Numbered from the stretch's first letter, positions 5,756 through 28,131 are shown. The stretch: 64,000 bases of DNA from Desulfosporosinus sp. Sb-LF (GCF_004766055.1 NZ_SPQR01000006.1:62001-126000), one strand, 5' to 3'. Made by a program: numbers and translations. The notes: generated from the letters alone by a model not told the origin.

Positions 5756-5859
5756 GGACAGACAGCGACCCGACCATCGAAATCAGCCAAAACCTTAATG
5801 CCAAAGGCAGTGCAATCACCATTCCAAGATGCAGAATGAATCGAGAGGAGAGATTGAGC

Positions 5860-20542: not shown

Positions 20543-20617
20543 TCCTCGATAGCTCAATGGTGGAGCAACCGGCTGTTAACCGGTAGGTTGTAGGTTCGAG
20601 TCCTACTCGGGGAGCCA
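20543..20617 (+). tRNA. tRNA-Asn (GTT)
   Basis: It folds as a full cloverleaf. The acceptor TCCTCGA pairs with TCGGGGA, the anticodon stem-loop is CCGGCTGTTAACCGG, the T arm is present and CCA is encoded. It is the first gene of a three-tRNA operon. Confidence 0.95.
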
Positions 20618-20639
20618 ATTTTTTGCATAAGTATAATAC

Positions 20640-20714
20640 GGGCCCATAGCTCAGCGGTAGAGCCCCCCGCTCATAACGGGTTGGTCCTAGGTTCGAATCC
20701 CAGTGGGCCCACCA
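20640..20714 (+). tRNA. tRNA-Met (CAT)
   Basis: Acceptor GGGCCCA pairs with TGGGCCC, the anticodon loop is CTCATAA, and CCA is encoded. The CAT anticodon could also be a lysidine-modified Ile tRNA. The body resembles elongator tRNA-Met of related Clostridia. It lacks the three G-C pairs of an initiator anticodon stem. Confidence 0.88.
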
Positions 20715-20829
20715 CTTCAAATGTCAGTGTTTGATTGCCAAAGGTCAGAAAATAGAAGACCGAAGCTAATTTTTGAGAAGGAACTTAAAAGATGTAGCTA
20801 TTCCAAAGGGCATATCGAACATCTAATTA

Positions 20830-20904
20830 GGGCGATTAGCTCAGCGGTAGAGCGCATCCTTCACACGGATGAGGCCACTGGTTCGAGACCAGTATCGCCC
20901 ACCA
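20830..20904 (+). tRNA. tRNA-Val (CAC)
   Basis: Acceptor GGGCGAT pairs with ATCGCCC, the anticodon loop is TTCACAC, and CCA is encoded. Its last 23 bases plus five flanking bases are repeated exactly at 25386-25413, marking it as an integration site. Confidence 0.95.
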
Positions 20905-20909
20905 AATAA
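20882..20909 (+). repeat. Left attachment-site repeat
   Basis: Proximal copy of the 28-bp direct repeat, embedded in the functional tRNA-Val gene and beginning TTCGAGACCAG. Confidence 0.8.
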
Positions 20910-21068
20910 AGTAAGATTTGGCTAATGAAAATGCTGAAAGTCTTGGTACAAACGGATATTGTAAAATTGTGAGACTGAACGACAAAATAGTTAAATATTC
21001 ACTTATAATTGTAAGTATCCGTAAGTAGTCGGTCAAGATTCGGTCAGGCAGTCATTATGAATAAGCTG

Positions 21069-21100
21069 ATACCTCATTGATTTGTCAATGAGGTATTTTT
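21069..21100 (+). terminator. Terminator hairpin in the island
   Basis: ATACCTCATTGA and TCAATGAGGTAT form a perfect 12-bp stem with a 4-base loop and a T run. It may end the tRNA transcript now that the native terminator has been displaced. Confidence 0.88.
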
Positions 21101-21150
21101 ATATACCTGTGATTATTTTAATAGAAGAACTGTTGTAGATGGGATACTTA

Positions 21151-21480
21151 TTATTGCAACACAAATTGCAGAGGCTCTAGACGGCCCTCTGGGCCTTTTG
21201 AGGAGCTAGAGACGGAGGAAGAGGTCACAGTCGCAGAACGTATTTGTTGTGCAATTTTGGGGCATCGAGAATGGATTTGTGTCACACCAGGATTTCCCTT
21301 AATCAACTGGCTACCAAAATGAACCGTGCCGTCCGTCATTGTCGATTGAATTTGTGACACGCAAATGGAATTTTCACCTCGGTTTTGTTTAAGGGAACGT
21401 TTAAGCGTTAAGAATGTAGATATGCCTGCTGATAACCTGTGATGCGATACAAATGCCTTGCTGTATGATTGACCATTCAA
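21151..21480 (-). CDS. Doubtful hypothetical protein
   Basis: An open frame of 109 residues, Ser-rich near its C-terminus (SATVTSSSVSSSSKG), with no recognised domain and no ribosome binding site before the ATG. The opposite strand is also partly open. It is included only because the island left end otherwise has no gene. Confidence 0.25.
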   Translation of the reverse strand: MNGQSYSKAFVSHHRLSAGISTFLTLKRSLKQNRGENSICVSQIQSTMTDGTVHFGSQLIKGNPGVTQIHSRCPKIAQQIRSATVTSSSVSSSSKGPEGRLEPLQFVLQ

Positions 21481-21525
21481 TAATATGCATTTAATGAGCT
21501 TATCCTTTATCTGACGGAGGAACTC

Positions 21526-22251
21526 GTGAAGAGATTCATCAAGAATTTGTTTAAATTCCTTATTTATACATCTGTGTTTCTATGTATTGGTTGGTTTGGA
21601 GTAAAATATTACTTTACTCATGTCAACAGAATTGCCGATCAGGTGCGTAGTGACGTGCTCACTCATGTACAAACCCATCATAGCCAGTTTCTAACGTACA
21701 ACGATATACCGGAAATATATCGAGATGCCATAATCTCAACTGAGGATCGCAGTTTTTTCACAAACAGAGGAATAGATTTAAGAGGAACTTTACGTGCAGT
21801 GTCTGTGGACATTGGCAGTGGGCAGGCCCGTCAAGGTGGCTCTACAATCACGCAACAGTTGATTCATAACACACTTTTAAGTAATATGTCAAAATCATTG
21901 ACGTGGAAATTACTTGAGAGTATCTATGCCATAGGGGTGTATGACTCGATGAGTAAGCAAGAAACATTCGCGTTCTACACCAATGTCATTTACTTCGGAC
22001 ATGGGGCTAACGGATTGTACCAAGCGGCAGAGACATACTTTGGAAAACCTCCATCGGAACTGAACGCAGGAGAACTGACAATGCTAGCTGGCCTTCCGAA
22101 TGCGCCAAGTAACTATGACCCATATCACAACATGAAACTTGCCCGTGAGCGACAACATATTGTCGTACAAAGTATGGTTGATAACGGAGAAATTAGTGAA
22201 TCTCAGGCGAAGAAGATTATCAGCGAACCTATTGCGGGTAAAATAGAATAA
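21526..22251 (+). CDS. mtgA: Monofunctional peptidoglycan transglycosylase (GT51)
   Basis: The 241-residue protein has one N-terminal membrane helix (about residues 8-28) and a GT51 domain. The catalytic Glu lies in AIISTEDRSFF, and RQGGSTITQQL and the chain-binding EIxYFG-like stretch (NVIYFGHGANGLYQAAETYF) follow. There is no transpeptidase domain, so it only polymerises lipid II. The GTG start at 21526 follows GACGGAGG. It lies inside the tRNA-Val island, so it may duplicate a housekeeping enzyme elsewhere. Confidence 0.9.
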   Translation: MKRFIKNLFKFLIYTSVFLCIGWFGVKYYFTHVNRIADQVRSDVLTHVQTHHSQFLTYNDIPEIYRDAIISTEDRSFFTNRGIDLRGTLRAVSVDIGSGQARQGGSTITQQLIHNTLLSNMSKSLTWKLLESIYAIGVYDSMSKQETFAFYTNVIYFGHGANGLYQAAETYFGKPPSELNAGELTMLAGLPNAPSNYDPYHNMKLARERQHIVVQSMVDNGEISESQAKKIISEPIAGKIE

Positions 22252-22394
22252 AGAAAAGCTATTAGAAAAACTTAATCTAGATTTCAGTAAATGAGTCTAT
22301 TTTGCTCTAATGATGTAATAAATCGCAATGCAAGCCAAGGCGTAAAAATTAATGTTAACTACCTTATATATTGTCTTTTATGGGCAAAAATTAA

Positions 22395-22422
22395 GGCCTC
22401 AGCTTGACCGGCTGGGGTCTTT
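22395..22422 (+). terminator. Weak terminator hairpin
   Basis: GGCCTCAGC pairs (with G-T pairs) with GCTGGGGTC, followed by TTTAAT. It lies between the transglycosylase and ytaF genes. Confidence 0.55.
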
Positions 22423-22515
22423 AATGTAATTGAAAAGAATACGTTAACAAATGCCTTTTTCCTTGAATAGTATGGTTCGGAAACTAGGATTTCTATGTTC
22501 AAGGGGGAGGCACTA

Positions 22516-23148
22516 ATGCATATAGTTTCGGCACTCTTTTTAGGTCTTGCCGCTAACCTGGATAACCTTGGGGTAGGTATTAGTTATGGAGTTAAAAAAA
22601 TACGTGTTCCCTTTCTCTCCAATTTCTTCATAGCCTTATTATCGGGTGTAGTTGTAGCCATTTCCGTCTTAACAGGGCATCTTCTTAGTCGATATATTGC
22701 GGTAGCAGGTGAGATAGGGGCCTTAATAATTGTCGCCATAGGATTTTGGGTAATAGCACATAAGACATCAACAAGTGATTGTTTACCAGCTGCTATTCCA
22801 GTTATGAAGACCTACTCTGTTCCAATCAAGGCGTTGAATTGTGTTGTCCAAATCACTAAAGAACCTTCTGTCGCCGATTTTGACGCTAATGGTTTCATCT
22901 CGACCAAAGAAGCCATGGTTTTAGGCTTGACGTTATCGTTTAACTGTATTGCTACTGGGGTTGGGGCTGGACTTACAGGAATGGACCCTCTTTCATCAGG
23001 TATTTCAGTCTTTATCTTCAGTATGATTTCAATTAGCGTGGGATACTTGATCGGTTGGAAAACTGCTTCCGACCGATTTGAACAATTCGCCCAAGTGATT
23101 TCAGGAGTGGTACTTATTATAATCGGTATTTATGAACTTCTTAACTAG
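22516..23148 (+). CDS. ytaF: Sporulation membrane protein YtaF (MntP-like fold)
   Basis: About 210 residues with six hydrophobic helices. The first half has LGLAANLDNLGVGISYGVKK and the second half repeats the pattern as LGLTLSFNCIATGVGAGLTG, the internal duplication of the YtaF/MntP family. A soluble loop contains DFDANGFIS, an acidic, EF-hand-like stretch typical of YtaF. ATG 22516 follows AAGGGGGAGG; the ORF extends to an upstream ATG at 22495 that lacks a site. The function of YtaF is unproven. The family resembles manganese exporters. Confidence 0.88.
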   Translation: MHIVSALFLGLAANLDNLGVGISYGVKKIRVPFLSNFFIALLSGVVVAISVLTGHLLSRYIAVAGEIGALIIVAIGFWVIAHKTSTSDCLPAAIPVMKTYSVPIKALNCVVQITKEPSVADFDANGFISTKEAMVLGLTLSFNCIATGVGAGLTGMDPLSSGISVFIFSMISISVGYLIGWKTASDRFEQFAQVISGVVLIIIGIYELLN

Positions 23149-23280
23149 AAGTTGTTATTTTCAACTATGAGTATTAACATAGATTCTTAACGTCTAACCA
23201 TCCATAGAGGTCTACATACCTTAAAGTAATCATCACAGAAGTTTTTCAAGATGAGAGAGGATATAGCTTCTCAAAAAGTG

Positions 23281-23302
23281 AACACCCCAATCAAGGGGTG
23301 TT
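23281..23302. terminator. Terminator between ytaF and the convergent lipoprotein gene
   Basis: AACACCCC and GGGGTGTT form an 8-bp stem followed by TTTCTGTTTC. Confidence 0.75.
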
Positions 23303-23345
23303 TCTGTTTCTAGTAATAGAAAAATAGTGTTTATGTGACACTTTG

Positions 23346-23867
23346 TTATTGCAAGTTAACCTCCATTTTATTGACTAGTTTATTGTCCTTAAAGGCCAGG
23401 AACACTTCTCCAGCGGATGGAGATTTCACGTGACATAAATAGGTTGCGGTATAATCTTTGCTTCCCTTTATACCGCTTTCTGTGACGACTTCACCAGTGC
23501 CTCCCAACAAGCCTTTAACTTTTTCATAGGTATCACCGTATTTTAGCTGGTTGTACTTAGCTTTACTAATGGTTAGTGTATTGCTTTTCTCAGTGGCTTT
23601 AGCTGATGTTGTTTTACCGGATTCAGATACTTTTTGGCTCGAGGTTAGAGTTTGATTGTTTGTATCTTTAGGAGTAACTGGAACCGATGGAATTGTTTTA
23701 TCGGCTGAAGAGTTCGTATCTAGTGTGTTAGGTGCAGCAGCCGTAGAAGTCGATTGTTTTGAAAGCCCTGTTGTTAACTTGCTACAGCCGATAAGAGCCA
23801 TGCTTAAGCCTAGGAGTAGAGTAATTAAAACTAGCCAGTGTTTTTGAACTGATACTTTAGCACGCAA
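23346..23867 (-). CDS. Lipoprotein with SmpA/DUF3862-like C-terminal domain
   Basis: The 173-residue product starts at a TTG preceded by AGGGGAG. It has a signal peptide with lipobox LIGC, a Ser/Thr-rich linker, and a compact C-terminal domain: KAKYNQLKYGDTYEKVKGLL, then GGTGEVV and FLAFKDNKLVNKMEV. This is the pattern of the DUF3862/SmpA-OmlA (BLIP-like) fold, usually a protein-binding lipoprotein domain. It lies in the tRNA-Val island. Its partner is unknown. Confidence 0.78.
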   Translation of the reverse strand: MRAKVSVQKHWLVLITLLLGLSMALIGCSKLTTGLSKQSTSTAAAPNTLDTNSSADKTIPSVPVTPKDTNNQTLTSSQKVSESGKTTSAKATEKSNTLTISKAKYNQLKYGDTYEKVKGLLGGTGEVVTESGIKGSKDYTATYLCHVKSPSAGEVFLAFKDNKLVNKMEVNLQ

Positions 23868-24094
23868 TAAAATTCACTCCCCTTATATAATATATCCATA
23901 TATTACCATATAAGGAACTGCGTACTAGCTTTTCGACAATATCCCTTATACTAATTCTAATTAACAATAGATAAATATAGGAGAGTTTATTTTACGAATA
24001 AAATTAAGAAATAGTCAAAACTGATATAGACCGCCGTTCGGCTAGATTAATTTGGGCCCTAAATAGAATACAACGATAAAAAATGATGTATGAA

Positions 24095-24145
24095 GAGTAA
24101 ACCTCCTAGTGTAGATTTATAACCTACGTAGGAGGTTTACTCTTT
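24095..24145. terminator. Strong hairpin, orphan terminator
   Basis: GAGTAAACCTCCTA and TAGGAGGTTTACTC are perfect 14-base arms, with T runs following. No intact gene now leads into it on the plus strand, consistent with a deletion. Confidence 0.75.
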
Positions 24146-24386
24146 AAAATTTGAAGATAATCTGTTGGAATTATTCTGAATCAAGCGGTTCAGTTAAAAT
24201 AAGTTATCTATGCACTAACTTGTTTTTGCTTTAAACATTTTAAGTTGTTTTTAAGAAAAAGATGATAAGTTGTAGGGTATACCGCATAGTATAAGTATAG
24301 CAATGATGAAGGAGTAGAAAGTTGAACTTTTTCGAAAGTGTTCTGGTCTCTCTTTGAGCTTTGCGAGTGAACAAACTAAGGTCGGC

Positions 24387-24476
24387 AGCTTAACAACCCT
24401 GACTATTGCTGATGTCGCCAAGATTCTAAAATGTTACTATAGAACCATTTGTGACTATCGTAATAAATATTTTTAA
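24387..24476 (+). pseudogene. Excisionase-like HTH fragment
   Basis: The frame reads SLTTLTIADVAKILKCYYRT, then ICDYRNKYF and stop. This matches the start of MerR-type excisionase (HTH_17) domains, which begin T-x-x-E/D-V-A-x-x-L and continue R-T-[VI]-x-x-Y/W. It lacks the normal continuation. In-frame upstream sequence has no good start and a TAG at about 24310. It is probably a remnant of the island's recombination genes. Confidence 0.4.
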
Positions 24477-24501
24477 CCCAACTTGAGGAGAAACGGCGAT
24501 A

Positions 24502-25227
24502 ATGGATTTGCGTAGATTAATAGTAGAGTTCACTTTTTTGTTAATTGTAGCTTATATAATTATTCCAAATATTGTATTGCGTTGTGGAGGGATCGGTTGT
24601 TGGAAAAGGCAAAACGCCTTAGGTGTTGCAATTACGTTTGATGATGGGCCTCACCCGGAATATACCCCTAAAGTTTTAGAAATTCTTGAGCGGTACAAGG
24701 TACCGGCGACCTTTTTCGTTGTCGGAGAAAATGCCGCCACTTATCCTGAATTGATTAAGGAAATTCAGGGCCATGGGCATCAACTTGGTATACACTGCCA
24801 ACAACATATTTGTTCCTGGTTTCTAAATCCATGGGCAACTTGGAGGAAGTGGGACGAAGGTGTTGCCACATTGGAACGGTTAACCGGGCAAAAGGTGGAA
24901 TGGATTCGTCCACCTTGGGGGGTCTTTAACATGGCACTTTGGCTATGGTTGAAATACCGTAAAAAGAAAGTGGTTCTCTGGAATGTAGAGGGTTACGACT
25001 GGCTCGCTCAACGAAGTCCAGAGCAAATCACAAAACGGGTTTTGAAAAAAACAACAGTAGGCTCCATAGTATTGTTACACGATGCCGGGGGTCAGCCAGG
25101 AGCACCGGCAAATACCATTTGTGCTCTAGAAAGCATTTGCCGAAGGGTTGCAGTCGAGAAAAAGTTGCCTTTTGTTAGCCTGGATTTGCCATTGAAGAAT
25201 TCACAAAGCAACAAATGGACAACCTAA
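24502..25227 (+). CDS. Polysaccharide deacetylase (NodB domain)
   Basis: The 241-residue protein has one N-terminal hydrophobic segment (residues 9-25) and a NodB fold. Present are TFDDGPHPEYTPKVLEIL (catalytic and metal Asp), HxxxH in GIHCQQHICSWF (metal His pair), RPPWGVFN and LLHDAGG. Such enzymes remove acetyl groups from peptidoglycan or exopolysaccharide at the membrane exterior. The ATG has TTGAGGAG eleven bases upstream. It is the last gene before the right attachment repeat. Confidence 0.9.
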   Translation: MDLRRLIVEFTFLLIVAYIIIPNIVLRCGGIGCWKRQNALGVAITFDDGPHPEYTPKVLEILERYKVPATFFVVGENAATYPELIKEIQGHGHQLGIHCQQHICSWFLNPWATWRKWDEGVATLERLTGQKVEWIRPPWGVFNMALWLWLKYRKKKVVLWNVEGYDWLAQRSPEQITKRVLKKTTVGSIVLLHDAGGQPGAPANTICALESICRRVAVEKKLPFVSLDLPLKNSQSNKWTT

Positions 25228-25385
25228 TGATAAAGCCGTATAATAAAGTTGTTGTTCAGCCTCCAAAAAGGGGCGTAAAATTCAGAAAAACACAATTTCA
25301 TTCAACTAATTAAATAAAGCGGTTTAAAAGTCGGTCACATTAACTAAAAACTGCACCACAAGGGTTCTAGGGTGGGTGATACACC

Positions 25386-25413
25386 TTCGAGACCAGTATC
25401 GCCCACCAAATAA
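25386..25413 (+). repeat. Right attachment-site repeat (tRNA-Val 3' end)
   Basis: An exact 28-base copy of the tRNA-Val T arm, acceptor strand and CCA, without the rest of the tRNA. Sequence upstream of it is unrelated to the tRNA gene. Confidence 0.82.
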
Positions 25414-25421
25414 TGCAAACA

Positions 25422-25457
25422 ATGGACTGTGGCAAAATAAGCCGTAGTCCATTTTGT
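25422..25457 (+). terminator. Probable native terminator of the tRNA operon
   Basis: ATGGACT and AGTCCAT, extended by GGC/GCC pairs, are followed by TTTTG. It stands nine bases after the displaced tRNA-Val 3' end, where the operon terminator would be before insertion. Confidence 0.75.
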
Positions 25458-27738: not shown

Positions 27739-28111
27739 GCGAAGCCAACTAGATGATCGCGGGGGTAAGGACCGAAAGGTCGCCTCTGAGGAAAGTCCGA
27801 GCTCCATAGGGCAAGGTGCTGGGTAACGCCCAGTGGGGGAAACCCCAAGGAAAGTGCAACAGAGAGATACCGCCTAATACTCCGCTTGAGTGTTAGGTAA
27901 GGGTGGAAAGGCGAGGTAAGAGCTCACCGGCAGTCAGGTGACTGACTGGCCATGTAAACCCCACCTGGAGCAAGACTGAATAGGGGAACTTTGAACGGCC
28001 CGTTTTTGTTCCCGGGTAAGGTCGCTAGAGGCCGTCGGTAACGGCGGTTCGAGATAGATGATCATCACCTCCATACGGAGGAACAGAACTCGGCTTATAG
28101 GTTGACTTCGC
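27739..28111 (+). ncRNA. rnpB: RNase P RNA (class A)
   Basis: The catalytic RNA for tRNA 5' maturation. The conserved P4 strand GAGGAAAGTCCGAGCTCC is present near the 5' end, with its partner ACAGAACTCGGCTTATAG near the 3' end. The GCAACAGAGA motif is present, as is the purine-rich GGTAAGAGCTCACCGG region of the specificity domain. Terminal strands GCGAAGCCAAC and GTTGACTTCGC pair. Length (about 373) fits class A. A promoter and a terminator flank it. Confidence 0.95.
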
Positions 28112-28131
28112 ATTATTTTCTGGGTTATAGG

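Follow-up and report, generated by a model that had tools for sequence, protein, structure and literature searches.

The window, the whole 64,000-nucleotide stretch of Desulfosporosinus sp. Sb-LF DNA that was analysed, carries genes for tRNA-Asn, tRNA-Met and tRNA-Val(CAC) at 20543–20904, with rpoD on one side and trmK on the other. A 28-base sequence, TTCGAGACCAGTATCGCCCACCAAATAA, made up of the last 23 bases of tRNA-Val and five more, recurs downstream with 28 of 28 positions identical, as the original prediction had it when it placed an exact copy of the tRNA 3' end 4.5 kb away. The displaced tRNA 3' fragment has the same orientation as the intact tRNA, and the two bound the DNA lying between them (Table 1). 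The inner 23-mer of the repeat has exactly two exact copies in the 4.27-Mb genome, in which the reversed control pattern of this 23-mer gave no match; an exact 28-base repeat at such positions is not due to chance. Farther along, downstream of the trmK–nif3 pair, lies an RNase P RNA (class A, Rfam RF00010) at 27741–28113 on the + strand.

Between the repeats lie four genes, for which the original prediction of envelope-related cargo (transglycosylase, lipoprotein, deacetylase and YtaF) was borne out by the families found: PF00912, DUF3862, polysaccharide deacetylase and spore_YtaF. The G+C content of this DNA is 38.9%, against 43.8–43.9% in the flanks. The three cargo genes tested, those for the PF00912 protein, YtaF and the deacetylase, are under purifying selection relative to their best homologues (dN/dS 0.08–0.38), although the low values may in part reflect selection before the genes arrived here. 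The cargo genes thus appear to be, or to have been, kept by selection, and the cargo would presumably be of benefit. The 20882–25413 interval contains no recombinase gene, again as predicted, and no conjugation gene was seen among its ORFs.

Table 1. Features of the tRNA-Val locus and of the DNA bounded by the 28-bp repeats (positions in the window)
Feature	Position	Strand	Evidence or remark
tRNA-Val(CAC), target gene, 3' end restored by the element	20830–20904	+	ARAGORN; Rfam
attL core, 28-bp repeat copy 1, start in T-loop	20882–20909	+	
Candidate paired attL arm sites, TCGGTCA(AGAT)TCGGTCA	21029–21046	+	conserved in relatives, at about 150 bp from the core
Putative element-borne intrinsic terminator, 13-bp stem followed by TTTATATA (T-rich)	21068–21097	+	same position in relatives; compensatory changes
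Peptidoglycan glycosyltransferase (transglycosylase) domain protein, PF00912, 241 aa	21526–22251	+	dN/dS 0.12–0.38
Sporulation membrane protein YtaF / MntP family, 217 aa	22495–23148	+	NCBIfam spore_YtaF above cut-off; dN/dS 0.11–0.15
DUF3862 lipoprotein, 173 aa	23346–23867	-	
Polysaccharide deacetylase, 241 aa	24502–25227	+	dN/dS 0.08; final 10 or so residues extend into the xis remnant
xis (excisionase) remnant, residues 45–75 of 80	25188–25280	+	tblastn, G013 Xis against the whole window
int 3'-end remnant, CAACTAATTAAATAAA, including stop codon TAA	25303–25318	+	collinear with the int ends of G013 and G008 and an IMG/VR contig
Candidate attR arm sites	25319–25337	+	first degenerate (GCGGTTT at 25319), second intact (TCGGTCA at 25331); pair at the same place in G008 and G013
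Element-side flank of the attR core, AAGGGTTCTAGGGTGGGTGATACACC	25360–25385	+	common to attR of G008 and G013
attR core, 28-bp repeat copy 2	25386–25413	+	
Original tRNA-operon terminator, displaced by the insertion	25422–25452	+	directly 3' of tRNA-Val in G001, G018 and G010; 26 extra bases between in G003

The native state of the locus

The hairpin that follows the second repeat (ATGGACTGTGGC..GCCGTAGTCCAT, then TTTTG) had been predicted to be the original operon terminator, and the place of the same hairpin in relatives supports this. Three other genomes of the genus (G001, G018 and G010) carry an empty site, in which tRNA-Val is followed after at most about 15 bases by the hairpin ATGGACTGTGGC...AGTCCATTTT and then by trmK, the distance from tRNA-Val to trmK being about 140–165 bp in such relatives. 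Because it stands directly 3' of the tRNA at these empty sites, the hairpin is the native terminator. In G003 the terminator likewise follows tRNA-Val, after 26 extra bases. When the left flank in the window is joined to the sequence beyond the second repeat, the result aligns to the native sites of G001, G018 and G010, hairpin included. The search for tRNA-Val joined to the terminator, proposed with the original prediction as its first check, was therefore successful. Nor are the genes and the repeat ancestral sequence shared by all relatives, the outcome that was to count against an island: the four cargo genes are found at this locus in none of the 28 other genomes of the genus, as far as the locus is assembled there, and the compact arrangement also occurs at more distant loci.

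Across the genus, the spacing between tRNA-Val and trmK ranges from about 140 bp to 15.4 kb. A long interval is not always the mark of an element, since in several genomes shared genes occupy the interval but no second core is present. Partial tRNA-Val copies at two loci (L169 in G026, near 5769, and L167 in G025, near 5781) extend no farther 5' than the anticodon stem (GTCCTTCACACGGATGAGG..), beyond which the sequence is unrelated; this suggests a second class of integrase, with crossover in the anticodon loop, and tandem islands at the same tRNA. Another recurrent type of sequence just 3' of tRNA-Val, with ATACCAAGG.TTT..GCCTT and GTTACGC-like repeats, is seen at five loci (L156, L165, L168, L171 and L172; genomes G015, G023, G025, G028 and G005) and is possibly the end of a further family of elements.

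Attachment sites and remnants of the integration genes

The heptamer TCGGTCA occurs in the window at 21029, 21040 and 25331, and the original prediction raised the possibility that the copies near both ends are arm sites. In G008, G013, G019 and G020, attL has paired TCGGTCA-like heptamers about 150 bp inward, and G026 has a degenerate version of them; at attR of G008 and G013 a TCGGTCA pair 12 bp apart comes just after the integrase stop codon. This conservation supports the assignment of the heptamers as putative arm-type integrase sites. So does the arrangement around homologous integrases elsewhere in the class (43–52% identical), since nearly all of these lie beside tRNA-type cores, such as tRNA-Val(GAC) and tRNA-Leu(CAG), and most have paired repeats of their own sequence after int. 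At tRNA-Leu(CAG), tandem cores were observed at two loci (L243 and L241): in G002 two intervals, of 19 and 39 kb, are stacked, and in G035 one of only 0.84 kb adjoins one of 41.6 kb.

A search of the whole window by tblastn with the excisionase of G013 gave a single significant match (E 5.3e-10, 68% over 31 aa), the next match having an E-value of 1.4. The final 13 codons of the deacetylase gene lie within this xis remnant, in a different frame, so that the 3' end of the gene is read as fused into the remnant. Homologues of the deacetylase align with it only up to residue 230 or 231 of 241. Of int, the region of the stop codon is left, followed by an arm and then by the attR flank, in register with the relatives. 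By comparison with these collinear sequences, the gap falls between about 25281 and 25303, where the integrase reading frame, about 1.1 kb long in G013, has been lost. Two other readings were set aside: 25248–25300 is weak as an int C-terminus (81 of 3000 shuffles were equally good) and is instead the end of xis, and a helix-turn-helix-like reading near 24390 is likewise weak (HTH_23, E 0.004) and does not align to xis.

A further hairpin lies just inside attL, directly beyond the arms. Hairpins of the same kind are found inside attL in seven relatives (3 of 200 in shuffled sequences), and four of the ten pairs are changed on both sides, a count reached in 3 of 500 shuffles, lost when the helix is slid, and drawn from a small set of seven aligned sequences (that of the window plus those of six relatives, without G020) chosen for forming hairpins. 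By reading, hairpins also lie 3' of the attL arms at tRNA-Val(GAC) in G033 and at tRNA-Leu in G035, and most members of the family have a terminator just inside attL. It is likely that the attL terminator stands in for the displaced native one and ends the tRNA transcript.

Integrase-bearing relatives at the same core

Islands with an integrase at this tRNA, which the original prediction expected in relatives, do exist. Related elements occupy the same core in two Desulfosporosinus genomes, G013 and G008 (the latter a D. metallidurans contig), and on two IMG/VR contigs; next to attR, each has a tyrosine integrase, xis or both, in broken form in G008 and intact in the others. In G013 and G008 the second core has an element-side flank like that in the window (AAGG-TT-TAGGGT-GG), and the tyrosine integrase lies directly upstream of this core, intact in G013 (369 aa, PF00589) and interrupted by stop codons in G008. 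The G013 integrase is preceded by an excisionase-type gene (HTH_17) and genes for a RepB-primase protein and an XRE regulator; further large genes, among them those of a type I restriction-modification system and a kinase-helicase, make up the remainder of the element. Both elements are split between contigs; that of G013 lies on two and, provided that both contigs are part of it, is 24 kb or more in length. G004 and G007 show the native state for the G013 insertion, with the same GTTAAAGTA-GGG coming after the tRNA.

On the IMG/VR contigs (3300027566_000046 and 3300029959_000524), the exact core adjoins an integrase that shares 81% identity with the G013 enzyme, together with xis, and the same terminator and trmK lie on the other side of attR. 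The order xis, int, attR, terminator, trmK at a tRNA-Val core is thus the same as in the window. Unlike the island in the window, this element, read from the head genes to attR, has upstream genes for an anti-repressor, both terminase subunits, an SPP1-type portal, a minor head protein, a scaffold, a capsid protein and a connector. The presence of these head and packaging genes upstream of xis and int indicates that a phage-like element, too, makes use of the integration module. On both contigs (L245, L246) the head genes run straight into xis, int and attR, and the stretch from the head genes to int showed no tail genes. The element is possibly a Desulfosporosinus phage satellite that forms capsids. 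Plasmid records contain no close integrase (E<=1e-40), and in phage records all integrase matches are below 60% identity, the best rows being 28–32%. The cargo of the family members is unrelated: capsid genes, restriction-modification genes or, in the window, four genes of envelope or sporulation type.

Origin and fate of the island

Taken together, these observations make it very probable that the stretch is a decayed tRNA-Val island, once mobile through a tyrosine integrase that has since been deleted. An element encoding such an enzyme would have entered the T-loop part of tRNA-Val(CAC) by site-specific recombination; because its attP contained the tRNA 3' end, the gene would have been made whole again at attL, and the previous 3' end would have been pushed out to attR along with the operon terminator. 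The element's own terminator would thereby have been set just inside attL, so that correct termination of the tRNA transcript is probably maintained. The core genes of the element would later have been lost through deletions that spared int only in the region of its stop codon and xis only at its C-terminus; one attR arm would have decayed, and four chromosome-type cargo genes would have been left over as a stranded block, probably immobile. The element in the window is known only in this integrase-less form. Its two 28-bp cores have not diverged; this is compatible with a decayed element, but also with a recent or still recombining one.

The original prediction had allowed for either a decayed element or one mobilised in trans; decay is upheld by the xis and int remnants, while mobilisation lacks a candidate enzyme in the genome. 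It could be argued that the island still moves by means of an integrase supplied from elsewhere in the genome or by an incoming element, acting on the cores and arms, as both cores are identical, the attL arms are intact, and the genus has integrases whose core is the same and whose arms are of the TCGGTCA type, so that an incoming element could in principle rescue the island (CIME accretion, PMC5704250). The genome, however, contains no integrase of this family at E<=1e-15, the cognate enzyme that an active element mobilised in trans would be expected to have, and no other tyrosine recombinase reaches that E-value; moreover, no intact xis is present and one of the two attR arms is degenerate. 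Continued mobility is accordingly judged improbable, and the element is most likely stranded, since no integrase related at that E-value is encoded elsewhere in the genome.

Nor is the second repeat at all likely to be a degenerate duplicate of tRNA-Val with ordinary chromosomal genes of the lineage in between. The sequence GGGTGGGTGATAC before copy 2 can pair with the core and is faintly reminiscent of an acceptor stem, but a similar flank lies beside int at attR of other elements, the genes are absent here in relatives, and a duplication is refuted by the xis remnant and the empty sites and would leave the arm sites unexplained as well. A variant compatible with a decayed island, in which the four cargo genes were added by ordinary recombination to an att pair that was already dead, deserves more weight, although it is somewhat the less probable course. 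Homologues of three of the cargo genes occur singly in other genomes, in varied neighbourhoods and not with this integrase, and the fusion of the deacetylase 3' end into the xis remnant also fits late entry; on the other hand, other members of the family also carry unrelated, mixed cargo, and acquisition before integration is as likely.

As a decayed tRNA-Val island, the element is best labelled a CIME-like decayed genomic island. CIMEs (cis-mobilizable elements) were defined from decayed ICEs and IMEs (PMC5704250). The island resembles them in that attL and attR are kept (identical cores, intact attL arms, one of two attR arms intact), in the loss of integration genes, of which remnants of int and xis are left, in having no transfer genes that could be seen, any ancestral transfer genes being presumptive, and in lying in a hot spot for integration that relatives with an integrase also occupy. 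It differs from them in that its relatives have phage head or defence-type genes and in that no conjugation gene was seen. The intact tRNA on one side, the 3' fragment displaced to the other and the empty site in relatives are those of a tRNA island, and the island shares with Islander-class tDNA islands having a tyrosine integrase (T-loop/J subsite; PMC4383910) this arrangement of tRNA and fragment, crossover in the T-loop part and, in its relatives, an integrase at the distal end. In contrast to that class it contains no tyrosine integrase, only the int stop-codon region and the xis C-terminus, and the integrase filter of Islander would therefore have rejected it.

More speculatively, one portable integration module (attL core, paired arms and substitute terminator at one end; xis-int, paired arms and attR core at the other) might serve the tRNA-Val site in common for otherwise unrelated elements, including a tail-less, capsid-encoding Desulfosporosinus satellite, with dead copies acting as parked cargo for pick-up by an incoming element with the same integrase; we consider this unlikely as it stands. 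Islands of this type are common; here the missing parts, the empty site and the intact relatives are all demonstrable. The locus thus provides a worked case of the death of a tRNA island, in which the integrase, most of the excisionase and one arm site were lost, whereas the att cores, the attL arms, the terminator and working cargo genes were kept. The terminator just inside attL hints at a means by which elements of this kind escape read-through from a tRNA operon that they have disconnected. Finally, the elements point to a small integrase family in Desulfosporosinus and its relatives, in which the arm sequence varies with the integrase, and this helps to find integrase-less islands that standard finders reject.
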